64,000 bases of DNA from Syntrophaceae bacterium (GTDB lineage Bacteria; Desulfobacterota; Syntrophia; Syntrophales; PHBD01), in contig JABLXX010000003.1 of NCBI GenBank assembly GCA_013177825.1, positions 1 through 64,000 on the forward strand, written 5' to 3'. How positions within the stretch are numbered: the stretch's first letter is position 1; each line of letters opens with the position of its first letter. Made by a program: the position numbers and the translations under genes. The notes below the pieces were generated by a model. The model did no database searches. It saw only the letters and a program-made list of their open reading frames with translations, and was not told the DNA's origin. Of this stretch, positions 25,139 through 39,785 are shown piece after piece.

Positions 25139-26854
25139 ATGGCAAAGGGGCGAATCAGCAGGCGCGACTTCATCAAGGGAACCGTCGTGGGGACGGGTGC
25201 CTTGGCGCTGGCGGGACTGACCGCAACCGAGGCAAAGGCGAAAGGGGGCGTACCCAGGAGATGGAACGCCGACGCCGACGTTGTCGTTCTCGGGTTTGGA
25301 GGTGCCGGTGCCTGTGCGGCCATCGAAGCCGCCGGAAGCGGAGCGAAGGTCCTTGTACTGGAGAAGCAGCCCGAGGCAAAACTCATCAACAACACCAGGA
25401 TGTCGGGAGGGATTTATCACTGTCCGGACCCGGCGGGAGACCGGGCGGCCCTGAAGGAATACGCCAAGGCCATGTTCAGCGGGGAGAACATTCCCTGGAA
25501 ACTGGAGGGGGAGCAGCCGGAATGGTCCGACGGCCTGGCCGAGGCCTGGGCCGAGTATTCCCCCCAAAATGTCGATTTCCTCATGAAACTGGATCCGCAG
25601 TACAAGACCGTTTCGTTTTCGGCGTTTGCCGGCGCGGCGTTTCCCAAATTCCCGGGGGCGAAAGACAGCAAGTACCGCGTGTTCGGGAGTACATTCACCG
25701 GGAAGGCCAGTTTCGACGAAGCGACCATGAACAAGCCCAAAATGGAGAAGATGAACGGGGAGGCCTTCTTCTATGTATTGGCCGAGGGGGCCAGGAAGAA
25801 AGGGGCCAAGGTCATGTACGAGACGCCCGCCAAGAGGCTCGTGCAAAACGACAAGGGAGAGATCCTGGGCGTGATCGCGACCGGAAAGGGCGGCAGGGAG
25901 ATCGCGGTGAGAGCCCGGAGGGGCGTGATCATCACGACGGGCGGCTACGAGTACAACAAGGCCATGAGAAAGGCCTTCCTGGAGGGACCGGGGGCCGAGG
26001 GCTGGGCTTTTTACGGATCTCCGGATAATACGGGAGACGGCATTTCCATGGCCATGGCCGCGGGCGCCGGGCTGGCCAAGGTGGGGAAGGCGGCCTCCAG
26101 AATCATCATGGCCGTTCCTGTCCGCTACCACGGCCTGAAGGCGGGTCTGATCACACCCGCCGTGGGACGGCCGAATTCGATCGTCGTCGACAATTACGGC
26201 AATCGCTACGCGGCGGAGCATCTCGTGACGAAGGACCCGAGCCGCTACTTCTTCTACAAGGAGGCGGTGAAGTTCGACATCCTCGAGCTCATCTACCCCA
26301 GGGTGCCGAGCTGGCTGATCTTCGACGAGACCCTTCGCTCGACGGTCACCATCACGAACCTCGGGATCTCGACCGCCGGCTTCGGTATCGTTCCCTGGTC
26401 GAAAGACAACATGGACGCCGTACAGAGGGGATGGATCCTCCGCGGGAACAGCATCGAGGAGATCGCCGACAAGATCAGGAGCCACCCGGAAAACAGAAAA
26501 CTCATGGAATCACAGAAGCTTGCCGCCGCTGTGGCGGGCTTCAACGAGGCCTGTGCAAAGGGAAAGGACGAGACTTTCGGCAGGCTGGCCGCCACGCTGA
26601 AACCCGTGGAGAAGGCGCCGTTCTATGCGCTGCCCCTGTACCCGGGAGGGCCGAACACGAAGGGCGGGATCGCCGCCAACGCCGCGCGCGAAGTCCTGGA
26701 CTGGGAGGGCAAGCCGATTCCGAGACTCTTCACGGCCGGGGAGATCTCCTCCGCCCTGAAGTTCGTCTACCAGGGAGGAGGCAACCTGACGGAGTGCATC
26801 GTCTTCGGCCGGATTGCCGGGAAAAACGCCGCGGCCATGAAGCCCTGGAAATGA
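25139..26854 (+). CDS. Tat-exported FAD-dependent oxidoreductase (fumarate reductase/flavocytochrome c flavoprotein family)
   Basis: 571 residues. A twin-arginine signal RRDFIKG occurs at residues 7-13, followed by a hydrophobic stretch and an A-x-A site. The FAD-binding Rossmann motif is VVLGFGGAGACAAIEAA with a following LEKQP. The second nucleotide segment GVIITTGGYEYN and the C-terminal AGEISS, YQGGGNLTECIVFGRIAG complete the FAD_binding_2 fold. Such enzymes reduce fumarate-like alpha,beta-unsaturated acids, urocanate or related compounds, with electrons from c-type hemes. The tetraheme protein encoded 73 bases downstream is the likely partner, giving a split flavocytochrome c in the periplasm. 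The substrate is not predictable by eye. Confidence 0.85.
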   Translation: MAKGRISRRDFIKGTVVGTGALALAGLTATEAKAKGGVPRRWNADADVVVLGFGGAGACAAIEAAGSGAKVLVLEKQPEAKLINNTRMSGGIYHCPDPAGDRAALKEYAKAMFSGENIPWKLEGEQPEWSDGLAEAWAEYSPQNVDFLMKLDPQYKTVSFSAFAGAAFPKFPGAKDSKYRVFGSTFTGKASFDEATMNKPKMEKMNGEAFFYVLAEGARKKGAKVMYETPAKRLVQNDKGEILGVIATGKGGREIAVRARRGVIITTGGYEYNKAMRKAFLEGPGAEGWAFYGSPDNTGDGISMAMAAGAGLAKVGKAASRIIMAVPVRYHGLKAGLITPAVGRPNSIVVDNYGNRYAAEHLVTKDPSRYFFYKEAVKFDILELIYPRVPSWLIFDETLRSTVTITNLGISTAGFGIVPWSKDNMDAVQRGWILRGNSIEEIADKIRSHPENRKLMESQKLAAAVAGFNEACAKGKDETFGRLAATLKPVEKAPFYALPLYPGGPNTKGGIAANAAREVLDWEGKPIPRLFTAGEISSALKFVYQGGGNLTECIVFGRIAGKNAAAMKPWK

Positions 26855-26927
26855 GTCTGCTTAGAGGGGATTGCGAGGATCGTGCAGGCAGAGGCGATGC
26901 CTGGAAAGGAGCTGCCCGGGGGAGAAC

Positions 26928-27290
26928 ATGAAAAAAGGACTTGGTGTCATTCTGTTGCTGATCGCGGTCATGGCGGCCTTTTGTCCCGGCGGATGGAATC
27001 GCGAACGCTCCTGGGCCGCCGAGCAAGAGTTTCTGGCGGACAGGCACAAGGCAAAAGAGATTCCGTGTGAAGGCTGCCACAAGGAAACCCCGCCCAAGGC
27101 CGTCGAGATGAAAACCTGCCTGGGGTGCCACGGAGAATACAAGGCGCTCGCGGCCAAGACGCAGCACGTGGAGCCGAATCCCCACGCATCCCATGAGGGA
27201 GAGCTGGCGTGCGGCGCCTGTCACCACGGCCACAAGCCGGGCGAAGACTACTGCGCAAAATGTCACAGTTTCGGATTTAAAGTCCGGTAA
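26928..27290 (+). CDS. Periplasmic tetraheme cytochrome c (cytochrome c3-like)
   Basis: 120 residues with a signal peptide and four heme motifs: CEGCH, CLGCH, CGACHH and CAKCH. Extra histidines (DRHKAKE, QHVEPNPHASHEG) can serve as distal ligands. The size and spacing match the small tetraheme domain that in Shewanella flavocytochrome c is fused to the flavin domain. Here it is a separate gene directly after the flavoprotein and before a strong terminator, so the two form a two-subunit periplasmic reductase operon. The start at 26928 has GGGGGAGAAC just upstream. Confidence 0.9.
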   Translation: MKKGLGVILLLIAVMAAFCPGGWNRERSWAAEQEFLADRHKAKEIPCEGCHKETPPKAVEMKTCLGCHGEYKALAAKTQHVEPNPHASHEGELACGACHHGHKPGEDYCAKCHSFGFKVR

Positions 27291-27298
27291 CCGGACAA

Positions 27299-27327
27299 GG
27301 GCGCCGCGTCTGCGGCGCCCTTTTTTT
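27299..27327 (+). terminator. Strong rho-independent terminator of the flavoprotein-cytochrome operon
   Basis: GGGCGCCGC and GCGGCGCCC form a perfect 9-bp stem around GTCT, followed by seven T's. Confidence 0.92.
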
Positions 27328-27621
27328 CGGCACGAAGTTCATGATGCACAATGCAGGAAAAACATCATCCCCCCGGCATGTTTCTCACTGGACCCCGTTT
27401 TGTCGGATCGCCGATCGGCAGACGGGAAAAAGACGAGTGTTGCGCCTCGCGGTTTGTTTTTTTGCGTGCCAGCCTGTATGCTCTCCGGGCGCATGAAAGC
27501 GCCGTCACGGCCGGGCGCAGCGCCCTGCCCGGCAGGCGAGACCGAATTCAGCGCTTATTGCGAGAGACTGAAAAAGATCATGGAAAAGGTTGTTAACAAA
27601 ATCGAGGAGTGAGTACGTCCA
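27328..27621. other. Intergenic region before the old-yellow-enzyme gene
   Basis: Nearly 300 bases without a recognisable gene. Open frames of 80 to 139 codons that cross it have no family features. The promoter of the downstream gene must be here but I could not define its boxes. Confidence 0.4.
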
Positions 27622-29628
27622 ATGAAATTTGTCAAGTTATCGGAATCCGTCAAAATCCGCCGCCTGACCGTCCCGAACCGGATGGTCATGCCGTCCATGG
27701 GGATGCACTTTACGGATCACTATGAATTCAACCGGCGCTACCAGGACTTCTACCGGGCTCGCGCCGAAGGAGGCGTCGGGCTGATGATCGTCGGTCCCGT
27801 CGCCATTGACCGCGTCGGCGGGGGTCCCTGGATGCCGGGGCTGTTCGAGGACCGCCAGATCGAGGAGTTCCGGCCCTTCCTGGCGGAACTGCACCGGGAC
27901 ACGAAGAGCGCATTGGGAACCCAGCTTTTCCATGCGGGGCGCAACGCCACGGCCCCGTTTTTCGAGGGCGTACCCGCCCTGGCCCCCTCCGCCGTTCCCA
28001 GCCGCCTGATGAAGCAGGTGCCCCGGGCGATGACCGCGGAGGACATCGAGACCGTGAAGGAGTCCTTCGCCCGGAGCGCCGTCCGCGCCCGGGAGGCGGG
28101 ATTCGATTTCATCGAGATCATCGCCTGCACGGGATACCTGATCAGCCAGTTCCTCTCCCCCGTCACGAACCTCCGGGCCGACGCCTACGGCGGGTCCTTC
28201 GAGAACCGGATGCGCTTCGGCCTGGAAGTGTTCCGGCGGGTCCGGGAGGCCGTCGGGCCCGACACGGCCCTGGGGATCCGCGTAGCCGGGAACGACTTCA
28301 TGGACGGGGGCTGCGCGAACCGGGAGATCGCCCTGTTCTGTGCGGAGGCCGAGAAGGCGGGGATCGACGCGATCAACGTGACCGGCGGCTGGCACGAGAC
28401 GAACGTGCCCCAGCTCACCTGCCACGTCCCGCCGGGGGCTTACGTCTACCTGGCCCGGGGGGTGAAAGATCGCGTGGGGATTCCCGTCTTCGCCTCGAAC
28501 CGCCTGGGCGACCCGGAGCTGGCCGAGCGGGTCCTGCGGTCCGGCGCGGCGGACCTGGTCTGCCTGGGGCGGCCCCTGCTGGCGGACCCGGACCTGCCGC
28601 GGAAGGTCCTGGAGGGGCGGACGGAGGAGATCGTCCACTGCATCGCCTGCCAGAACTGCTTCGACAGCATCGCCACCGGCGGGGCGGTCTGCTGTGCCCT
28701 CAATCCGCTTATGGGGCGGGAAGGGGAGTTTCGTCTGGAAAAAGCGGCGGTCCCGAAAAGGATCTTTGTCGCCGGCGGCGGGCCGGCGGGGATGGAATTC
28801 GCGGCCGTCGCCGCCGGGCGTGGACACGACGTCACCCTCTTCGAGAAGGAGGACCGCCTGGGCGGGCAGATCGAGCTGGCATCGGCACCCCCGGGGAAGC
28901 AGGCCTTCGGGAGCGTGTCACTGGACCGCGAGAAGAGGCTGAAATTGGTGGGGGTCAAGATCCGGCGGAAGTCGCCGCTTACCATGGCGAAGATCCGCAG
29001 GGGAAAGCCCGATGTCCTGGTCGTGGCGACCGGGGCGGTTCCCATGGAGATCCGTGTTCCGGGGATCGACCGGCCCCACGTGGTCGGTGCCTGGGACGTG
29101 CTCCGGGGAAGGATTCCCGACATCGGACGGCGGGTGGTCGTGGTCGGCGGAAACGCCGTGGGGTGTGAAACCGCCGAGTGGATCGCCTCCCAGGATATCC
29201 CCGATCCGGAGACCTTCACCTTCCTGGCCTACCACGGGGCGGAGAATCAGGAGGAGCTGCAGGCGCTCCTGTACCGCCACCGCCGGCAAATCACCGTCAT
29301 CGACATGGTGGAGAAGATGGCCGCGGGCACGGGACGCGCGTCCCGGTGGGTCCTGATGAAGAACCTGAAGCTCTGCGGGATCGAGCTCCGCCCGGGGGTG
29401 AAGCTCCTCGAGATTACAGACGACGCGGTGATCGTGGAGACGGGCGGCGGGAAGGAGAGCATCCCCGCGGACACCGTGGTCATGGCCGTCGGTTCGCGGC
29501 CGGTGGATGACCTGATGCGTCAGGATGGGATCAACGGGCTCCGAGTGGTCACCATCGGCGATGCGAAGGCCCCCCGTAAGATCGTCGATGCGATCCGCGA
29601 GGGCTTCGAGGAGGCCATGAAGATCTGA
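27622..29628 (+). CDS. NADH:flavin oxidoreductase, 2,4-dienoyl-CoA reductase/enoate reductase type (old yellow enzyme family)
   Basis: 668 residues. Residues 1-350 are an FMN TIM barrel, with the OYE segments CTGYLISQFLSPVTNLRADAYGGS and LGRPLLADPDLPRK. A [4Fe-4S] cysteine cluster CIACQNC with CC further on lies near 337-355. Residues 375-668 are FAD/NAD(P) Rossmann domains with FVAGGGPAGMEFAAVAAGRG and VVVGGNAVGCETAEW. Relatives reduce enoates, 2,4-dienoyl-CoA or bile-acid intermediates using NAD(P)H through the Fe-S cluster. It is alone in its transcription unit and ends before a palindromic terminator. The substrate is unknown. Confidence 0.9.
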   Translation: MKFVKLSESVKIRRLTVPNRMVMPSMGMHFTDHYEFNRRYQDFYRARAEGGVGLMIVGPVAIDRVGGGPWMPGLFEDRQIEEFRPFLAELHRDTKSALGTQLFHAGRNATAPFFEGVPALAPSAVPSRLMKQVPRAMTAEDIETVKESFARSAVRAREAGFDFIEIIACTGYLISQFLSPVTNLRADAYGGSFENRMRFGLEVFRRVREAVGPDTALGIRVAGNDFMDGGCANREIALFCAEAEKAGIDAINVTGGWHETNVPQLTCHVPPGAYVYLARGVKDRVGIPVFASNRLGDPELAERVLRSGAADLVCLGRPLLADPDLPRKVLEGRTEEIVHCIACQNCFDSIATGGAVCCALNPLMGREGEFRLEKAAVPKRIFVAGGGPAGMEFAAVAAGRGHDVTLFEKEDRLGGQIELASAPPGKQAFGSVSLDREKRLKLVGVKIRRKSPLTMAKIRRGKPDVLVVATGAVPMEIRVPGIDRPHVVGAWDVLRGRIPDIGRRVVVVGGNAVGCETAEWIASQDIPDPETFTFLAYHGAENQEELQALLYRHRRQITVIDMVEKMAAGTGRASRWVLMKNLKLCGIELRPGVKLLEITDDAVIVETGGGKESIPADTVVMAVGSRPVDDLMRQDGINGLRVVTIGDAKAPRKIVDAIREGFEEAMKI

Positions 29629-30177: not shown

Positions 30178-30705
30178 TCAGAGTCCCTTCCTCTCGAACA
30201 GGCGGAAGACGCCGAGGAAGGCGGCGATCAGGACGATGATGACGATCCAGTGGTTGACGCCGAGAGCAGAGGGGATCGTGATCTTGCCGAAGTTGCCCCA
30301 GGTCAGGACCGTCTCCTTGAGAAACGGGAACACCTCGGCGTAGAGGCCCGCCCCGAGAACCATTCCCAACAGGCCGAAAAGGCTGTCGTAGCGCCCCTCG
30401 CCGAGGGCTGCCGAGCCGGTGGTGGGACAATAGCCGACGATGGCCCAGCCGATGCCGAAGATGAGCCCTCCGAGGATGTTTGCCCCCAGGATCGTCGTTT
30501 TGATGGAGAGTTTCGCCATCCCGAGATCCAGGAGCAGGTAAATGCCCACCATGGCTACCAGGATGGCGCTCAGCATGAACTTTACGATGGTCATGTCCTT
30601 CAGACGCATGGCCCCCAGCTGTTTGTCGTAGCGGATGACCTGGGCCTTCTGCATGATGAATCCGAAGAGGAGACCCGTAACGGCTCCGGTCAGCAGTTCG
30701 TTCAT
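30178..30705 (-). CDS. YeeE/YedE (thiosulfate/sulfur transporter-like) membrane protein, second half-type subunit
   Basis: 175 residues with about four or five membrane helices. The signature IVGYCPTTGSAALGEGRYD near residue 92 matches the GYCPGT motif of the second repeat in TsuA/YeeE proteins, including its cysteine. TsuA-type proteins pass thiosulfate through the membrane by relay between cysteines. Full-length proteins carry two such repeats; here each half is a separate gene. The ATG overlaps the upstream gene's stop (ATGA), and AGGAGGTGATC precedes it, so both halves are made together and probably assemble as a heterodimer (inference). Confidence 0.85.
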   Translation of the reverse strand: MNELLTGAVTGLLFGFIMQKAQVIRYDKQLGAMRLKDMTIVKFMLSAILVAMVGIYLLLDLGMAKLSIKTTILGANILGGLIFGIGWAIVGYCPTTGSAALGEGRYDSLFGLLGMVLGAGLYAEVFPFLKETVLTWGNFGKITIPSALGVNHWIVIIVLIAAFLGVFRLFERKGL

Positions 30706-31226
30706 CGCCGATCACCTCCTCCGTACAGGATTCCGGCCACGATGATGCCGGCCAGGAAGAAGCATATGAGGGAAACGTAACCGCTGACGGCTACCTGAGC
30801 CAGACCGCTCAGGCCGTGGCCGCTGGGTCACCCGTCCGCGAGGCGCGCCCCGAACATCGCCACCGTCCCGCCGAAGAAGGCCACTGTCCAGCGCCGGGCG
30901 CGGGAAGGACCGAACCGGGCCTCCCACATGGGCGGCACCGGGACGGCACGCCGTTCCCCCGACAGGGAAGCCGACGCCAGGGATCCGAAGAGAACACCGA
31001 GAACGAACATTCCCTGCCAGTCCAGTTTGATTTTCTCCTTGATGAAGTACTCCATGCCGGCCACCCTTTCGGGTGCCGCCGCCTGCTCGACGAAACCGGC
31101 GATGCGCACGAAAGTCGTCGAGGCTCCGAAGTACTTTCCCGTCAGGAAGACGGACAGGATCAGGAGCAGGCCGGCAACGGCACCGGCGGCATAGGGGGAC
31201 CATGTCTTCTGCGTCAGTACGTTCAT
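30702..31226 (-). CDS. YeeE/YedE transporter-like protein, first half-type subunit, with a probable selenocysteine (UGA at 30828-30830)
   Basis: Read through one UGA, the frame encodes 174 residues. The UGA is codon 133 and falls in ARLADG-U-PSGHGLSG, which aligns with the family motif ending GGC-TSGHG, where the residue is a conserved transport cysteine. Downstream of the UGA the frame stays open for 41 codons with typical transmembrane sequence and ends in a stop that overlaps the next gene by four bases. A SECIS-like hairpin follows the UGA. Established: selenocysteine replaces cysteine in many Desulfobacterota redox proteins. Inferred: the protein contains Sec. The start at 31226 has GAGGTGAACGGAAC before it. 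The alternative is a nonsense mutation, which the preserved downstream motif argues against. Automated annotation would truncate it to 132 residues. Confidence 0.82.
30789..30830 (-). promoter_or_regulatory. Bacterial SECIS-like element directly after the in-frame UGA
   Basis: On the minus strand, CCTGAGC (30813-30807) pairs perfectly with GCTCAGG (30800-30794) around the six-base loop GGTCTG. The loop's G-G-T starts 22 bases after the UGA, inside the range known for bacterial SECIS elements that bind SelB, and G at the top of the loop is the conserved feature. A lower stem GGC/GCC (30821-30819 with 30791-30789) extends it. Confidence 0.75.
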
Positions 31227-31490: not shown

Positions 31491-32261
31491 TCAATAATTC
31501 ATAATGAGGAGCTCATTCACCCGCTTCTTATGATTGGCGCCTCCAGCCGAATATGACGTCTGAACAGATTCGATATTGTAGCCTCTAAATAATTCTCGGA
31601 TCTCATCGACGTCATTGATCGACATGATGAATTTACCTCTGATGTCGGATAAAACGTCTCTGAGCTTCAAAAAATCCTCCCGGAAGAAGATGTCCTTTCC
31701 GTAATAGTCCTCACACCCATAATACGGTGGATCGATATAATAAAAGGTGTCAGGTTTATCAAAGCGTGTGATTACGTCTGCATAAGGCTTGTTCTCGATG
31801 TATACCCTTGTTAAGCGAAGGTGAACCGCTGACAATTCCTCCTCGATGCGCAAGAGGTTAAGCCTCGGTTTTGATGTTGTTGCAATGGAGAACGAGGGAG
31901 ATTTGATCCGGGCCGCATAGCCCAACTTCAGGAGGTAGTAAAAGCGAACAGCTCTCTGGATATCTGTCAGCGTTTCTGGCGCTTCTTTGAAAAAGCGCTG
32001 GAACTCGTCACGCGCAACCAATATCCATTTAAAGTACCGTATAAACTCTTCCAAGTGGTGTTTGACCACCCTGTATAGGGTAACCAAATCCAGATTTATG
32101 TCATTGATGATCTCGACATCAGAAGCATCTTCGTTTTTTTCAAACAGAAGCCATGCTGCACCAGCAAATACCTCAACATAGCATTTGTGTTCCGGAATTC
32201 TCGGAATGATCTTTTTTGCCAATAACGACTTACCACCCATGTACGCCAAAAAACTTTTCAC
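31491..32261 (-). CDS. DNA adenine N6-methyltransferase (Dam/D12 class)
   Basis: 256 residues. The SAM-binding start is FLAYMGGKSLLAKKIIPRIP, motif I is VEVFAGAAWLLF, and the catalytic motif IV is YIDPPYYG near residue 170. These place it in the D12 class, which methylates adenine N6, GATC in the best-known members. It is the last gene before the phage end, where Mu keeps its mom DNA-modification gene, so protection of phage DNA against host restriction is the likely job (inference). It is lower in GC than its neighbours. Confidence 0.92.
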   Translation of the reverse strand: MKSFLAYMGGKSLLAKKIIPRIPEHKCYVEVFAGAAWLLFEKNEDASDVEIINDINLDLVTLYRVVKHHLEEFIRYFKWILVARDEFQRFFKEAPETLTDIQRAVRFYYLLKLGYAARIKSPSFSIATTSKPRLNLLRIEEELSAVHLRLTRVYIENKPYADVITRFDKPDTFYYIDPPYYGCEDYYGKDIFFREDFLKLRDVLSDIRGKFIMSINDVDEIRELFRGYNIESVQTSYSAGGANHKKRVNELLIMNY

Positions 32262-32542
32262 CAGATCCTCCCCTTAAATTGATTTGCGGGACGGACCCTG
32301 CTATAAACCGCGCGCGTGCCAACGCACAGCGGATGGCAGCGGGTCATCCCGTCATGTGCTCGATACACATGGTCTGGGGAGGTGGCTCTCCCTGGAATGC
32401 TGTCCGCTTCTTTCTATCCTACGTTCTTCTCCGTTCCCTCATTAATAGGCTTCAAGGCATCCAGTTTTTCCCGAGATAGCCGCTGGCCCCGACGAGCCAG
32501 TCCCATGATGATCCAGACCTTCCAGTAGGTTAGCGGTTTCAC

Positions 32543-32571
32543 TTGACATGCTCCCCGGTCGCCGCTACCCT
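32543..32571 (+). promoter_or_regulatory. Promoter driving the plus-strand SGNH hydrolase, predicted leaderless
   Basis: TTGACA (32543-32548), a 17-base spacer and TACCCT (32566-32571). The ATG at 32578 is seven bases after the -10 box, where transcription should begin. There is no Shine-Dalgarno sequence. The remaining 32262-32542 gap shows nothing else. Confidence 0.6.
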
Positions 32572-32577
32572 ATCCCC

Positions 32578-33570
32578 ATGAAAATCAAGGTGGTTATCGT
32601 CAACATCGTCTTGATCGTGGCCGTCGTGCTGGTGGCTGAGTGGTTCGCATGGTTGTGGCCGTATTGGGGAGAAGTCGAGCAGACGGCGGCGAGGTACGAA
32701 GGCACCTGTGATCAGAATTACTTCAGATCGAACGTTCCTTTTCTCGGATACGCCCCCGGTCCCGGATCGTCTTGCACGGTGAGGATGCTCTACGGAGAGA
32801 GGGTCATTTACGACGCCCAACGCACAATCGGGAGCGATGGGCTCCGAATCACTCCCGCATCCAAAAGCCCCAACGCCCCAGGAATCGCGTTCTTCGGTTG
32901 CTCCATTACCTTTGGAGACGGAGTCAACGATAACGAATCCATGCCCTATCGATTCGCCGAATTGACCGGATACAAAGTTTGGAACTTCGGCTTTTCTGGC
33001 TACGGTCCCCACCAGATGCTGTCCGCCCTGGAACACGGAATCGCTGACCGGGTTGTCGGGAACGTCGCGCCGAAGGTCGTCGTGTATCAGGCGATCCCGC
33101 ATCACGTTACAAGAGTGGAAGGGGACCTTGTGTGGTATCCGGACGGTCCCCGCTATGTCTCTGACGGTAACGGAGGGGTTAACTTCGCCGGGAACCTTCA
33201 CGGCTCGATCTCGTCGTGGATCATGGATCAATCCATGAAGACGAACATCGGCAGACGCTACTGGATATGGAAAGCCCAGGGCGGAGGGGGTGACATTGAC
33301 TTGACCGTAAAAATTGTTGCCCGCTCCCGAGATCTCGTTAAGCAGAAATGGCCGGATGCTCGGTTTGTTGTTCTCTACTGGCCTGTTGATTCCGAGACCA
33401 GCACAAGACTTGAGGAAGGTTTTCGACGGGCGGGGATGACCGTTCACCGCGTAACCGAAGCCATCCCTGATTGGCGTCTCCTGCATGTCAAATACTCCAT
33501 TCCCCATGACGGACACCCAAACGCCCTCGCGCACAACATGATTGCTGAGTATCTCGCAAAAAACCTGTAA
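32578..33570 (+). CDS. Membrane-anchored SGNH (GDSL-like) hydrolase, phage cargo gene
   Basis: 330 residues on the strand opposite to all other phage genes. An N-terminal membrane segment (KVVIVNIVLIVAVVLVAEWFA) is followed by an outside domain. The SGNH block I is FFGCSITFGDGVND with the nucleophile serine; a Gly-rich WNFGFSGYGPHQ gives block II; the C-terminal DGHPNALAH gives the Asp-x-x-His pair. SGNH enzymes add or remove acyl groups, often on polysaccharides. With its own promoter and inverted direction it is a typical lysogenic-conversion cargo gene (moron). It may modify surface glycans of the lysogen (inference). Confidence 0.75.
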   Translation: MKIKVVIVNIVLIVAVVLVAEWFAWLWPYWGEVEQTAARYEGTCDQNYFRSNVPFLGYAPGPGSSCTVRMLYGERVIYDAQRTIGSDGLRITPASKSPNAPGIAFFGCSITFGDGVNDNESMPYRFAELTGYKVWNFGFSGYGPHQMLSALEHGIADRVVGNVAPKVVVYQAIPHHVTRVEGDLVWYPDGPRYVSDGNGGVNFAGNLHGSISSWIMDQSMKTNIGRRYWIWKAQGGGGDIDLTVKIVARSRDLVKQKWPDARFVVLYWPVDSETSTRLEEGFRRAGMTVHRVTEAIPDWRLLHVKYSIPHDGHPNALAHNMIAEYLAKNL

Positions 33571-33574
33571 GCCT

Positions 33575-34762
33575 CTACGGCAGCCGGAAGATCGCTGTTA
33601 TCCCGAGGCCCTTTGCCACCGTTCCGGAATGCACGGTCAAGATCACCGCATTGAGTGTGTCCCCCTCCGCGATATCGTCATAGTCGGTATTGATTACTGC
33701 GGGCGTTTCGGCGGTCTTGCTGGTAAATTCAAGGCTGTCAATTGAGACCATCGTTGACAGCATGCCCCGGTTCTTCGTTACAACGATGGAGCCTGTACCA
33801 ATAGTCTTGTTCGCCTCGGCACTGGAACCTGCATCGGTCGTCTCAAAATAGTTGGCCCCCACAGCCGTGATCGACTTGAATCCATTGTTTCCTGCCGCAA
33901 AATTCTGCGCCTGGATTGAAATACCATCGTTGACTTGCAGGGAGGCGGCAGAGGAGGAGATTCCCGGGTCGGTGCCGGTTCCATCATATGTATAGCGCGT
34001 GGTGTTCGCGTCCGGCGCCCCAGGTCTGGTAATGTCAAACTGAGTCGTACTGTCCCCGAGCGTTACAGGCCTGTTTCTCCCGAGCGTAACTGCCATGGTC
34101 CCGGTGGTCCCGGGCTGAGTCCCTACCCCGGCCAGGACACCTACAAGATTCATCCCCGCCAGAGACGAAGGGATCGGTGAAGACATTGCAAAGGCATACT
34201 GAGCACAATCGGTAGTCGGAGCGACGACCTGGAAATAAATCTCCTTCGTCCCCAGGTTCGACCCCGCCAGCGCATCGGGCGTGACGGCCTCATCGGTCGC
34301 CGTGCCGGTGTTGACGGTGGCGGAAGTGGAATATTTGATGGGGGCATTCAAGTAAACCGGGTAAAAATCATCGCTGGCGGCATTCCGATACCCCAGGACA
34401 AGCCGGTTGTAAGCCAGGATGTTCGATGCTGCCCCTGTCGTGATGCTCCCTGCGGATACAGTTAGGGCCGTTCCGTCCGACTCGTTCAAATCGACGTAGG
34501 CGAATTGGCCGTCCGTAAGGGCGATGCTCCCGGCAGCGATCGTGTTTTGAACCAAGTTTCCGGCCGCCGTGTTGAAGTGGATCCGGATCGCGCCCGACCA
34601 TGAAAGCGTTCCGGTGGATGCATTCCAGGAAATCGCCCCATCGCAACTGACAATGACATTTTTAAGATAGGTGATCGCCTTATCCAGTTCATTGAACGGA
34701 ATGTTCATGTGGGTATATTTCCACAGCGTTTCCGCCGTAAGGGCCGTGAAGAAATTCCCCAT
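33575..34762 (-). CDS. Tail fibre-like structural protein
   Basis: 395 residues rich in Thr, Ser, Ala and Gly with beta-type sequence. The N-terminus MGNFFTALTAETLWKYTHMNIPFNELDKAITYLKN looks like an attachment segment, followed by a repetitive beta body (NAPIKYSTSATVNTGTA, TPDALAGSNLGTKE). Position downstream of the baseplate genes suggests a distal tail or receptor-binding part. No enzymatic motif was seen. Confidence 0.6.
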   Translation of the reverse strand: MGNFFTALTAETLWKYTHMNIPFNELDKAITYLKNVIVSCDGAISWNASTGTLSWSGAIRIHFNTAAGNLVQNTIAAGSIALTDGQFAYVDLNESDGTALTVSAGSITTGAASNILAYNRLVLGYRNAASDDFYPVYLNAPIKYSTSATVNTGTATDEAVTPDALAGSNLGTKEIYFQVVAPTTDCAQYAFAMSSPIPSSLAGMNLVGVLAGVGTQPGTTGTMAVTLGRNRPVTLGDSTTQFDITRPGAPDANTTRYTYDGTGTDPGISSSAASLQVNDGISIQAQNFAAGNNGFKSITAVGANYFETTDAGSSAEANKTIGTGSIVVTKNRGMLSTMVSIDSLEFTSKTAETPAVINTDYDDIAEGDTLNAVILTVHSGTVAKGLGITAIFRLP

Positions 34763-34764
34763 GA

Positions 34765-34971
34765 TCAGACCCCTCCCTTCGTCATTTTATCGACCATGTC
34801 CCGCATATTCGGGGGAACGAGCCCCCCCAGGGCCGAAAGTGCATGACTCACCTGATCCCTGTTAGCCCTCATGGCCGCCTCCGCATTGGCCTGCGATTGT
34901 GCGGCATGAGCGTTCAGTGTCTTCAACTCGGCCACGATCTGCCGGAGCAGCCCCTTTACCTCTTCCATCAT
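34765..34971 (-). CDS. Small coiled-coil phage protein of unknown function
   Basis: 68 residues, mostly helical (LLRQIVAELKTLNAHAAQSQANAEAAMRA), with AGGACATG context typical of a ribosome site. It lies two bases before the fibre gene and six after the baseplate protein, so it belongs to the same operon. It may be a fibre chaperone or trimerisation factor (inference). Confidence 0.5.
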   Translation of the reverse strand: MMEEVKGLLRQIVAELKTLNAHAAQSQANAEAAMRANRDQVSHALSALGGLVPPNMRDMVDKMTKGGV

Positions 34972-34977
34972 GTCCTC

Positions 34978-36042
34978 CTAAGACGGGTAGCAGATGATGC
35001 TTGCCATCGCCTCGATGGCGATATTGACGTGCAGCGCAAACTTGAAGATCGCAAAATCAGTTGTGCCCTTTGTGTAAGTGAACGTCGTTGATGAAAATAT
35101 GCCGGTCCTGGTGGCGGTCGACCCGGGGCCGTCATCGCCGGTGAGAGTGCCGTTGTCCTCATTGTAGATCTCGGCGGTGAGCACATACGGTGCCGAGGAC
35201 GAAACGGCATTCCCGTACTGATCCAGGACCGTAATGGTGATGACGGATGTGGTGTCCGCCGGATGCAGATGATCCGGGGCCAGGGACACGGACAGGCTCT
35301 TCGCCACCGGTGCAGCGAATTTCCCGGCGATATTGATCGAGGTGATTTCCGTCGTTCCCGAATGCAGGAAAATATATGTGGGTTCGCCGCCGACCTGTAG
35401 ATGATCGGCGCTCACCACAGGATAAACCGGAGTCGTTTGGAACGGCGTCCCTGCTACATAATCAAGAACCCCGTCCGCCCCCACCTGGATCAGATCGAAC
35501 CGGAAATAACCGGCAGCCGGGGAAGCCGGGACAGTCAAGGCTCCGGCGATGGTATTGATGACGCCGCCCATCGATGCCTTGTAGACGTCGGAATTACAGG
35601 CGATGGCATCAAGGGTATAAGTGACGCCGCCGATCCGGTACGTGCCGACCTTCACCAGGACGACCATGTCTGGGTCATTATAGGCCGGGACCAGATTGCA
35701 GCCGGTTAGGATGGCATCAACCGCCGTTGGGGCCGTCGGGGCTGCCGATCCGCCCGCCACCGGAGTGGGAACGATCAACCCGCAGCCCACAACCTCGATC
35801 CGCCCCCGGATGCCCCGATTGAATGCAATGCGGACAGCATTCCCCGGTTTCAGCCATGCCGGTGTCTGCTGCCAGTTCTCCGGGTAATAGGCCGTAATCT
35901 GATTGTTGCTGCCCTGGATTTTTACGCGGCACGTCCTGGTCGACGCCTCAACACTCCACAAAATCCCGTCCATCGACTCGCCGCGGGCCGCAATCTGCCG
36001 GTCAACCTTAGATCTTATGAACTGCCTGCTGTATAGTCTCAC
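34978..36042 (-). CDS. Baseplate/tail-tip protein with OB-like start and Ig-like C-terminal domain
   Basis: 354 residues. Residues 20-80 (DGILWSVEASTRTCRVKIQGSNNQITAYYPENW... KPGNAVRIAFNRGIRGRIEVVG) resemble the OB-fold of phage spike or baseplate proteins. Residues 235-345 contain a bacterial Ig-like pattern (DHLHPADTTSVITITVLDQYGNAVS). Its ATG overlaps the preceding large hub gene by four bases. A role in the tail tip or in adhesion is inferred from location and fold clues. Confidence 0.6.
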   Translation of the reverse strand: MRLYSRQFIRSKVDRQIAARGESMDGILWSVEASTRTCRVKIQGSNNQITAYYPENWQQTPAWLKPGNAVRIAFNRGIRGRIEVVGCGLIVPTPVAGGSAAPTAPTAVDAILTGCNLVPAYNDPDMVVLVKVGTYRIGGVTYTLDAIACNSDVYKASMGGVINTIAGALTVPASPAAGYFRFDLIQVGADGVLDYVAGTPFQTTPVYPVVSADHLQVGGEPTYIFLHSGTTEITSINIAGKFAAPVAKSLSVSLAPDHLHPADTTSVITITVLDQYGNAVSSSAPYVLTAEIYNEDNGTLTGDDGPGSTATRTGIFSSTTFTYTKGTTDFAIFKFALHVNIAIEAMASIICYPS

Positions 36043-39000
36043 GACACATACCAGCCTTCGATTTTATCCACACAGGATGCCTCTTCCTTGACTCCGGACG
36101 GCACCCTGTAGGTCCGCTTGAGGTCCGTAATGAAAACCGTCATGGCCTGTCCTGAATAAGGATGGATAACGCTGATCGTGTCGCCTTCCTCATCCTGCAG
36201 GTGTGATACTTTATCGAACGTCAACCGCTTTCGCTGGCCCTTCAAGACGTCCCGCTCGTGGTTCGCCACCAGTTGGCAATCTTCCGTGGTGTAACAGAAC
36301 TCGCTCTCGATCTTCGTTGAGATGACTTTCCCAATCTGCCCCTGGAGCTCAAAATCATTGGCAGTTGCCTGGACGGAACGGCGGACGTAGCCGACGGGCA
36401 GGCCATGTATTTCATATTGGAAGTTTCCGATTGAACTTGTGATGTTGAGGATGATGACCATCGCCAGCGCCTGAACGAACCGCCCGACGGGAATGGTGAA
36501 CCCTCCATTCGCTATGAAGCCGAACGCCACAACGATGTCGGGAATCCAGGCCGCCGCCAGATAAATGGATACCTGGATCACCAGGGGCGGCCTCAGATCC
36601 GGGGCGCTAACTGTTACGACACAGTATTTTTCATTCGTGTCAACGGACGTAATGCTCTCATCAACGCCCCCTGCCAAATCGAATGCGATGGTGCTTGCCG
36701 ACTCAACAATGAACAGTCGGGGGGACCGGAACCGGGCGGATTGGTCGTCGGAATAATAGACGATGAAGTCATTTTCAAACCCATACCATCCACAGGTTCC
36801 GCTCAACGTCTTTATCAATTCCTCGGCATAGACAACCTCCGTGTAGGCCCGCTCCTGACCCACAACGGCGACTTGATTCGTGAAGTCGGAAAAGGTGTCA
36901 TCAGGGGTGAAATTAAGGATCTGCGTTGAGTCGCCATAGGTATGGGTGATCGCGTTGTCCAGGGCGATCTTCCCGGCAGCAATCTTGTCATCCCGGGTGA
37001 TCTTGAGAAAATAGCCGTACCTATCAAGGATCTGCTGGATGGCATCCAGGAGCGCCGTTTCAACCCATTGATGGTAAAGAGTGGTCTCGTTGTCGATGGT
37101 CGGCCAGGAGAAATCCCCCGCGTCAACGGTACTGTCCGCAGCTATGATGAGCCCTTCGATAATGTCCGTCGGGTCGTCAGAATATTCAGCGGATGCAATG
37201 ATCTCCTTGAACTTCCACAGGGTCCGCATGTCCTCGGCGGTGATCTTGAGCGTCGGCAGCTTGCCCCTTTGGTAGCCTTCCATCTTCCGCTCGATGATCC
37301 AGTACGTGCCCTGGTTTTCCCAATACTCCACACCGCCGATCAACTCCCCCAGGCGCACAGAGATCTTGCGCCCCTTGTCGACATACTTCCGATAAAGGGA
37401 TGCCAGGTTGTAGGGATCGAACAGGTGGCCGTGGGTGATTGTGAATTCCAGCTTTCCGGGATCTCCGTCAATCGTCCAGGTCAGTTCAAGGCCGGAATCA
37501 CGCATCCAGAAAGGCGCCAAATCGAATGCCGGGGCTTCCGTATCCCACCAGATCGAGGTTTCCTCGATGTCTTTGAAAACACCGAAGGCGTAAAGGGTCC
37601 CCGATTCGGAATCCATCGCGGCTTCAAGGTCATAGGTATTGTTTTCCAGGACCATGTTGTCAGCCTTCCCCCAGGTCCAGGCTCCGGCTGAATAGGTGCC
37701 GATCTTATAAAAGGATTCTTTGAAGGCGCCATAGGTGGAAATGGCCAGGACTCCTTCCTGATCAGTAAGAGCCCCGAACGTGGTAAAGATCAATTCGCCT
37801 GTTTCGTCGTATTCCAGGAGATTGAATTCGTCATCTGCCGGCGTGGTAAATCCCGGATTGTTCGCGTTGCTATAATTTACCCATGTGTTCAAAGCCGGAT
37901 CATAAATGATTAAACCATAGACGGATGACGTGATCAGCATCCTTCCATCAGCCATTACTTTAATGTCTGTGAATCCATAATCATCAACCGTCGCAAAAGT
38001 CGGCCTATGGCAAATCATTGCATCGGTGGTTAGATCAATGACCACCAATCCATAATTGCTTCCCTGGCTGTAATACGTTGAATGGTCAAATCCAGCATAG
38101 ATCTTCCCGTTATAGATTTCCGCGCATTCCAAACCTCTTTCAGGAAAACCGGGATAAGCCGCAACGTAATAATTCTTAATAAGAACACCGGTTGCTAGAT
38201 TATAAACAGAACAGAATCCGGCTCCCTGCTGGACATTGGTGTCATTCCCATAAACAAGGATATAACCATATTCCGGATAAACCTTGAACTTAACATTCAA
38301 ATAAAGCTTCGCGGTCCCGGCAACGCCAGGATTGCAATCTGCACAAACAATATGCTCGGTATAAGTCAGGGATCCGGTACTGAAAGGAATATATCCGATG
38401 ATGAATTGCCAATTCAAATGACTGAAAAACCATACCTTATCGCTTGTCAGATCAATCTGAACAGCGCACAGAGTCAATCCGTAAGTATGGGTCGCCGTGA
38501 CGTTTTGAGTGATTGAATAAACGGGCCATGATCCAAAGGCATAATTCCGGATGATTAAATCATTTTCCCCATCCAGGATCTGAACGAAAATCCTATTCAT
38601 CTGGCCCAGGGTATGGACGGCGATATAATGGCCTGAATTGATCGATCCAAGAGAATATCCAAATGCAGGACCGCCGAAGATCTGATGAAAATCCCCGTTC
38701 GGGTATGACCATGCTGCATCAATTTCCCAAGCATCAACGTCAACCCGATTCACGGCAATTCCCGAATAACCGCAGGCCGTGATATAGAGTTTCCGGTTTG
38801 TCGCATCAAAATGAAGTTGTGAGATAACACCGATGCCTCCGCCTGTACTCGGGGAAAGCCATCCATCGGCATTCTCGTTGACCATCAAGGATTTCTGTTC
38901 CTGGGTCCAGATCGCATACATTTCAGTGGCTGATTTCATGACAGACCGACCGTGATTCCCGATTGTCGCAAAATCATCATAGGCGGTCATGGCCCCGCCC

Positions 39001-39785
39001 AGGGTCCATGTCGCTCCATCAGGGGAAGTGGCATAATAAACATTTGTCCGTTCTTCCCCCGATCCCCCGACACCATCCACAACCGTGATCCAAAGCCAAA
39101 ATGTTGCGTGAGACGCATCATACATCAGGGCGGGGGAAGACCATTTTAAAGGGGTTGCATCGGCCACAATGCCCCGATCTCCCCAAGTCTGGAAATCCGT
39201 GCTGGTGATCGTATAAACAACATATTCGGTTGGCGTCTCATATTCCCCGGCTGTTACAACCAGATATTCATTTGCCAGCGGATTATAAATGACGGCAATT
39301 CCATCAGAATAATAATCATGCAACCATGAATCAATGGTTCCATTAGAAACCTTTGTCCCGGTAACCGTGAGGATCTGATATTTGATGTAGTAGTTATGAT
39401 CAGATTGATTATCTTCAAGCCATACAATAGCGATATTTCCATTTGCCATTTCACATATGGAAACATTTTTGATTACGATTGCATCAGAGCCGTTATAAAG
39501 GCTCATGGGAACTATGGTGAAAGTCGTTTTCCCGGCATCGGTATAAAAATATCGAATGTCATAAATATTATTTAAAGACCCGGATGGACCATAGATATAA
39601 CAACCCACCAGGCGGCCCAGGGAATGAACCAGGACACAAGGATCAGATTCGTTGATGGTCTCGGTGGTCAGGACTGTTCCGTCAAAAGGAATGGCATTGG
39701 TCGGATCCCCGGAAAGGATCTCGACCAGGGGTGACCGCCGGTTTCCGTCCTGGTTGGCCTGCAAGGTCGCGTTCAAGGTCCGCAT
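36039..39785 (-). CDS. Baseplate hub-like protein fused to an Asp-box (sialidase-like) beta-propeller
   Basis: 1248 residues. The N-terminal 740 or so are beta-repeat sequence with Asp-box motifs, STDFQTW at 195-201 and SPDGATW at 254-260, as in sialidase and related propellers. The C-terminal 480 residues (from about FDLAPFWMRDSGLELTWTI) look like a tail hub: a long alpha/beta domain with LYRKYVDKGRKISVRLGELIGG, an ILDRYGYFLKIT segment and a final DLKRTYRVPSGVKEE. DNA for about residues 50-700 is clearly AT-richer than the rest of the operon, suggesting an acquired host-recognition module. No catalytic sialidase residues could be verified, so binding is safer than hydrolysis as a role. Confidence 0.65.
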   Translation of the reverse strand: MRTLNATLQANQDGNRRSPLVEILSGDPTNAIPFDGTVLTTETINESDPCVLVHSLGRLVGCYIYGPSGSLNNIYDIRYFYTDAGKTTFTIVPMSLYNGSDAIVIKNVSICEMANGNIAIVWLEDNQSDHNYYIKYQILTVTGTKVSNGTIDSWLHDYYSDGIAVIYNPLANEYLVVTAGEYETPTEYVVYTITSTDFQTWGDRGIVADATPLKWSSPALMYDASHATFWLWITVVDGVGGSGEERTNVYYATSPDGATWTLGGAMTAYDDFATIGNHGRSVMKSATEMYAIWTQEQKSLMVNENADGWLSPSTGGGIGVISQLHFDATNRKLYITACGYSGIAVNRVDVDAWEIDAAWSYPNGDFHQIFGGPAFGYSLGSINSGHYIAVHTLGQMNRIFVQILDGENDLIIRNYAFGSWPVYSITQNVTATHTYGLTLCAVQIDLTSDKVWFFSHLNWQFIIGYIPFSTGSLTYTEHIVCADCNPGVAGTAKLYLNVKFKVYPEYGYILVYGNDTNVQQGAGFCSVYNLATGVLIKNYYVAAYPGFPERGLECAEIYNGKIYAGFDHSTYYSQGSNYGLVVIDLTTDAMICHRPTFATVDDYGFTDIKVMADGRMLITSSVYGLIIYDPALNTWVNYSNANNPGFTTPADDEFNLLEYDETGELIFTTFGALTDQEGVLAISTYGAFKESFYKIGTYSAGAWTWGKADNMVLENNTYDLEAAMDSESGTLYAFGVFKDIEETSIWWDTEAPAFDLAPFWMRDSGLELTWTIDGDPGKLEFTITHGHLFDPYNLASLYRKYVDKGRKISVRLGELIGGVEYWENQGTYWIIERKMEGYQRGKLPTLKITAEDMRTLWKFKEIIASAEYSDDPTDIIEGLIIAADSTVDAGDFSWPTIDNETTLYHQWVETALLDAIQQILDRYGYFLKITRDDKIAAGKIALDNAITHTYGDSTQILNFTPDDTFSDFTNQVAVVGQERAYTEVVYAEELIKTLSGTCGWYGFENDFIVYYSDDQSARFRSPRLFIVESASTIAFDLAGGVDESITSVDTNEKYCVVTVSAPDLRPPLVIQVSIYLAAAWIPDIVVAFGFIANGGFTIPVGRFVQALAMVIILNITSSIGNFQYEIHGLPVGYVRRSVQATANDFELQGQIGKVISTKIESEFCYTTEDCQLVANHERDVLKGQRKRLTFDKVSHLQDEEGDTISVIHPYSGQAMTVFITDLKRTYRVPSGVKEEASCVDKIEGWYVS

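Follow-up and report, generated by a model that had tools for sequence, protein, structure and literature searches.

A UGA codon almost certainly read as selenocysteine in a putative split YeeE/YedE transporter of a Syntrophaceae bacterium

An in-frame UGA at codon 133 of a YeeE/YedE gene in the window, the 64,000-nucleotide stretch of Syntrophaceae DNA analysed here, almost certainly encodes selenocysteine (Sec), and there is very little doubt that this residue belongs to a YeeE/YedE unit split between two genes. A previous, sequence-only reading had regarded the codon as probable Sec, and this is supported by a codon column that contains only TGA and cysteine codons, a SECIS hairpin, the presence of the sel genes and constraint on the sequence that follows the UGA. 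The best reading of the gene pair, judged from sequence, is a putative transporter made of a Sec-containing PmpA and a cysteine-containing PmpB. The relevant features are:

30705..31226, minus strand: Sec-containing YeeE/YedE C-terminal-half (PmpA-like) subunit, 174 aa with UGA133 as Sec
30828..30830, minus strand: in-frame UGA, codon 133, selenocysteine, aligned with Cys293 of StTsuA
30793..30814, minus strand: bacterial SECIS hairpin, stem CUGAGC/GCUCAG plus two further pairs
30704-30702, minus strand: terminal UGA stop (codon 175) of the Sec gene, overlapping the partner start as ATGA
30178..30705, minus strand: gene for the PmpB-like partner of 175 aa, the N-terminal half of YeeE/YedE, its start overlapping the Sec gene as ATGA

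The frame runs from 31226 to 30702 on the minus strand and is split by the TGA in the context LADG-TGA-PSGHGLSG, as had been reported, and the four-base overlap with the partner, whose ATG lies at 30705, was likewise confirmed; a plus-strand reading of 30702-31226 was dropped. Shine-Dalgarno-like sequences (GGAGGT / GGAGGTG) lie directly 5' of the ATGs of both genes. With the UGA taken as Sec, the product is MNVLTQKTW...GARLADG-U-PSGHGLSGLAQVAVSGY...GGGDRR, of 174 residues, and the match to Sulf_transp (PF04143) spans the UGA, extending over residues 4-161 with 74.0 bits against a curated cut-off of 27. On the 310-position Pfam profile this match occupies the second half (172-309) and that of the partner the first (14-148, 64.7 bits, cut-off 27), so that a single YeeE/YedE unit is made up jointly by the pair. 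Wherever a homologous locus extended far enough, a PmpB-like partner was found to follow. The same genome has a further PmpB-like N-half gene (G000:C12:51735-52139, minus strand; L003 1471-1998); it has no adjacent Sec half, and an additional ORF fragment upstream is cut by the contig end.

The residue concerned can be placed by reference to TsuA of Spirochaeta thermophila (StTsuA), in which the relay cysteines are, from first to third, Cys293, Cys91 and Cys22 (PMC11073785), Cys91 and Cys293 being indispensable (PMC11582611). Alignments to the structures 6LEO and 8J4C pair U133 with Cys293, which bears out the earlier suggestion that the UGA occupies the position of a transport cysteine, here the first of the thiosulfate relay. 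The invariant Cys93 of the partner (GYCPTTG) aligns with Cys91, and no equivalent of Cys22 was found in the alignment of the partner to StTsuA, the window protein having Ile there. The description of the protein as TsuA-like thus holds at the level of the family (PF04143) and fails for a complete TsuA, the gene encoding just the C-terminal portion of a PmpAB-type, split transporter: there are two chains, the Cys22 equivalent is missing and the scores lie below the cut-offs of the TsuA models (46-47 bits against 400 and 27-41 bits against 645 for NF052577 and NF041049). AlphaFold models of the two halves (pLDDT 72 and 62) were too weak to be used, and no structure in the PDB matched that of the partner.

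UGA in bacteria is by default a stop codon, and the simplest rival to Sec is that UGA133 is a real stop, leaving a truncated pseudogene or a gene with a 132-residue product, or else an assembly error. The metagenome-assembled genomes (MAGs) concerned are not free of errors or nonsense mutations: in one homologous locus (L100) the Sec gene has, besides the Sec codon, another in-frame TGA near codon 103, where Arg or Lys is normal (MWEURFG), and this is probably a nonsense mutation or an assembly error. At codon 133 itself, the column was examined in 86 distinct homologous loci, drawn from genomes of the order and from a scan of named bacterial genomes, and it holds TGA in 64, TGC in 16, TGT in six and nothing else. 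This is the in-frame UGA aligned with cysteine of homologues by which bacterial selenoproteins are recognised, and it agrees with the prediction that the site is normally cysteine in the family. The TGA-bearing form is present in approximately 40 genomes of the order and is common to most relatives within it, the named close relatives being MAGs of Syntrophales/Syntrophaceae-type deltaproteobacteria; in another genome of the genus the gene is 95% identical and has TGA at the same codon (L017). Retention of the UGA in independent genomes does not bear out a misread TGC or TGT. Nor was there the decay around the UGA that would be expected of a pseudogene, as both flanks are conserved in homologues and the sequence beyond the codon is under purifying selection (pooled pN/pS 0.23). 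In some close relatives (L021 and L026) synonymous change also drops from 0.56-0.59 on the 5' side of the UGA to 0.28 on its 3' side, as expected if a SECIS element lies inside the frame. Together with the SECIS and the full sel gene set described below, these observations make a stop or an error very improbable.

The hairpin that would direct Sec insertion starts 13 nt downstream of UGA133 and has a 6-nt apical loop, GGUCUG (30806-30801), the first nucleotide of which lies 21 nt after the UGA. The bacterial SECIS model as set out in PMC13188914 has a loop of 3-9 nt with G in the first two positions at a distance of 16-37 nt from the UGA, and the window hairpin fits in loop size, G position and distance. 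Among the loci the element takes two forms, one with a 6-nt loop GGUCUx and one with a short loop within GGUUC and a bulge in the 3' arm, and a complete stem of either form was found in 62 of the 64 UGA genes but in only three of the 22 Cys genes (Fisher p 5e-14, kinship ignored). Random synonymous recoding of the window sequence yielded the full stem in 0.6% of trials (p 0.006), and the mean recoding p was 0.014 over UGA genes compared with 0.36 over Cys genes, relatedness again being ignored. One stem pair connects the synonymous positions of a Leu and a Gln codon and covaries in the UGA genes between CUG-CAG and UUG-CAA (54 C-G, nine U-A and one U-G); no such covariation was seen in the 22 Cys loci. 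Compared with dinucleotide shuffles the hairpin is predicted to be only moderately stable (z -2.6 and -1.9) and it is therefore the comparative evidence that carries the weight for a SECIS.

The machinery for Sec insertion was sought in the whole genome (4.24 Mb in 25 contigs), as the earlier reading had proposed, and selA (606 bits), selB (363 bits), selD (392 bits) and a tRNA-Sec (selC) with anticodon UCA were all found, which excludes absence of selB or selC. A second Rfam tRNA-Sec match above cut-off (G000:C5) was identified by ARAGORN as tRNA-Ser. The selD gene has a single in-frame UGA of its own (AGUACK), which on sequence grounds points independently to UGA coding for Sec in this genome. 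It might still be argued that UGA133 is read as some other amino acid, through suppression or a recoding of TGA, since any form of readthrough would keep the frame open. Such a reading is less probable still than a genuine stop: TGA ends genes here, the Sec gene included, the alternatives at the site are cysteine codons only, the tRNA with the UCA anticodon is tRNA-Sec, selD contains just one in-frame UGA and the hairpin tracks the UGA. Across the homologue genomes the presence of selA did not separate those with UGA from those with Cys, as 53 of 57 have it; the four that lack it are 77-88% complete.

Residue 133 being almost certainly Sec, its exchange with cysteine appears to have occurred repeatedly. 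A tree built from the part of the protein upstream of Sec requires 10 Sec/Cys changes, at least seven of which are forced by well-supported branches, the tree being based on few columns and unsure in its details. Three Cys genes (L018/L050, L027/L046 and L087) are placed among UGA genes and still possess a complete SECIS stem, which fits recent changes in the presumed direction from Sec to Cys. In a sample of the phylum the closest homologues mostly contain one TGA, and the more distant ones are mostly without an internal stop. A search of viral contigs for relatives found none, and plasmids yielded one distant, partial relative.

A Sec form of YeeE/YedE is not new. The family (PF04143) is listed among selenoprotein families, with WP_012471001.1 as reference, in reviews of 2022 (PMC9312934) and 2026 (PMC13188914), the latter giving the motif as GUxSG. 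The window gene shares both the family and the Sec motif, its G-U-P-S-G being an exact fit, and thus represents a further member of a known, predicted selenoprotein family as these entries define it. The name YeeE/YedE does not occur in the main text of either of the two references cited by PMC13188914, so the family is citable from the reviews alone, and no experiment on the Sec form is described in the literature found. The table row and the remark that make up the reviews' entries mention no split partner, SECIS or repeated Sec/Cys exchange; what is added by the present analysis is the split architecture, the exact SECIS, the repeated exchange and a lineage-specific link to a CoA-disulfide-reductase-like gene. 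The closest known parallel in architecture is PmpA/PmpB of Serratia, likewise two short subunits that match the C-terminal and N-terminal halves of TsuA and each contain a single conserved relay residue; a heterodimer has been proposed for them (PMC11582611). Their relatives move zero-valent sulfur. The window pair shows the same division, with separate C- and N-halves that carry the Cys293 and Cys91 positions respectively, but its PmpA-like half has Sec in place of Cys and the subunits are longer (approximately 175 vs 130 residues). StTsuA/YeeE (PDB 6LEO, 8J4C, 8K1R), in contrast, is a single chain (330-350 aa being the TsuA criterion) that has three relay cysteines, of which Cys22 contacts the YeeD partner, and the window operon has no adjacent YeeD gene.

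On the preferred reading, the two-gene operon encodes a split PmpAB-type membrane transporter for reduced sulfur species, the two halves presumably forming one heteromeric pore. SelB and tRNA-Sec would decode UGA133, guided by the downstream hairpin, and Sec would replace the first relay cysteine on the substrate-entry side, with the partner providing the second. The substrate is likely to be thiosulfate or zero-valent (sulfane) sulfur, as these are moved by members of the YeeE/YedE family. Sec may speed a reversible contact or sulfur transfer at the entry site, although any particular chemistry there can be put forward only tentatively. The earlier reading's ideas on the use of selenium, that Sec might make the relay more nucleophilic or more redox active or tune it to selenium or polysulfide species, are equally conjectural. 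A more specific and rather more doubtful proposal has zero-valent or sulfane sulfur bound covalently to the Sec of the entry site, as a selenenyl-sulfide intermediate, and passed on from there to Cys93 of the partner; if so, sulfur would be relayed covalently, in place of a relay of thiosulfate through hydrogen bonds, and in some lineages the split Sec transporter would feed a CoA-disulfide/polysulfide reductase.

Genes for TusA/YeeD, rhodanese or CoA-disulfide reductase were not found adjacent to the window operon, which stands alone, so that its own context gives no pointer to substrate. Elsewhere a CoA-disulfide-reductase-like gene lies directly 3' of the YeeE pair on the same strand in approximately 11 loci, mostly of one clade (L074, L078, L082, L087, L092, L105, L106, L108, L109, L117 and L120), and in several of these it is followed by a gene for a cyclic-nucleotide-binding-domain protein. 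The product is a pyridine-nucleotide-disulfide reductase, the closest models being those for CoA-disulfide reductase, although the two that were scanned scored 435-447 bits and so fell below the cut-offs of 458 and 579. In L079 a gene lying upstream encodes such a reductase fused with rhodanese, TusA and DsrE2 domains. As for the surroundings of the operon in the window, a Dam-type DNA adenine methyltransferase (above the TIGR00571 cut-off) lies beside large ORFs at 31491-39785 on the minus strand, directly upstream, and these ORFs may be part of a prophage. On the plus strand at 25139-29628 there is a TAT-signal FAD_binding_2 flavoprotein, followed by a small tetraheme-type cytochrome c and then an old-yellow-enzyme/FAD-NAD oxidoreductase, and together these may form an extracytoplasmic reductase set.

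The recurrence of the reductase-like gene, where present, suggests sulfur and bears on a further alternative, that the pair transports a selenium compound, as YedE/FdhT or seleno_YedE are proposed to do, and that Sec itself acts in sensing or handling selenium. A link between YedE-like proteins and selenium has been made in work cited in PMC11582611, and both TIGR04112 and NF033796 give weak matches of 32-33 bits, but these are far under the curated cut-offs (200 and 350 bits respectively) and a TsuA model with 46-47 bits scores higher on both halves. The seleno_YedE and YedE-FdhT proteins belong to the same superfamily, are distant from the window proteins and are proposed selenium transporters, not selenoproteins. 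A role in selenium transport is accordingly improbable, and transport of thiosulfate or sulfane sulfur by the split pair remains the probable function.

Selenoproteins of known function are mostly redox enzymes, and Sec in a membrane transport pore would thus be unusual. There is also a problem of annotation, since standard annotation would end the gene at residue 132 and the motif would be lost. Natural Sec/Cys pairs at a single relay position would open the chemistry of YeeE transport, whether a hydrogen-bond relay or a covalent transfer of sulfur, to experimental test.
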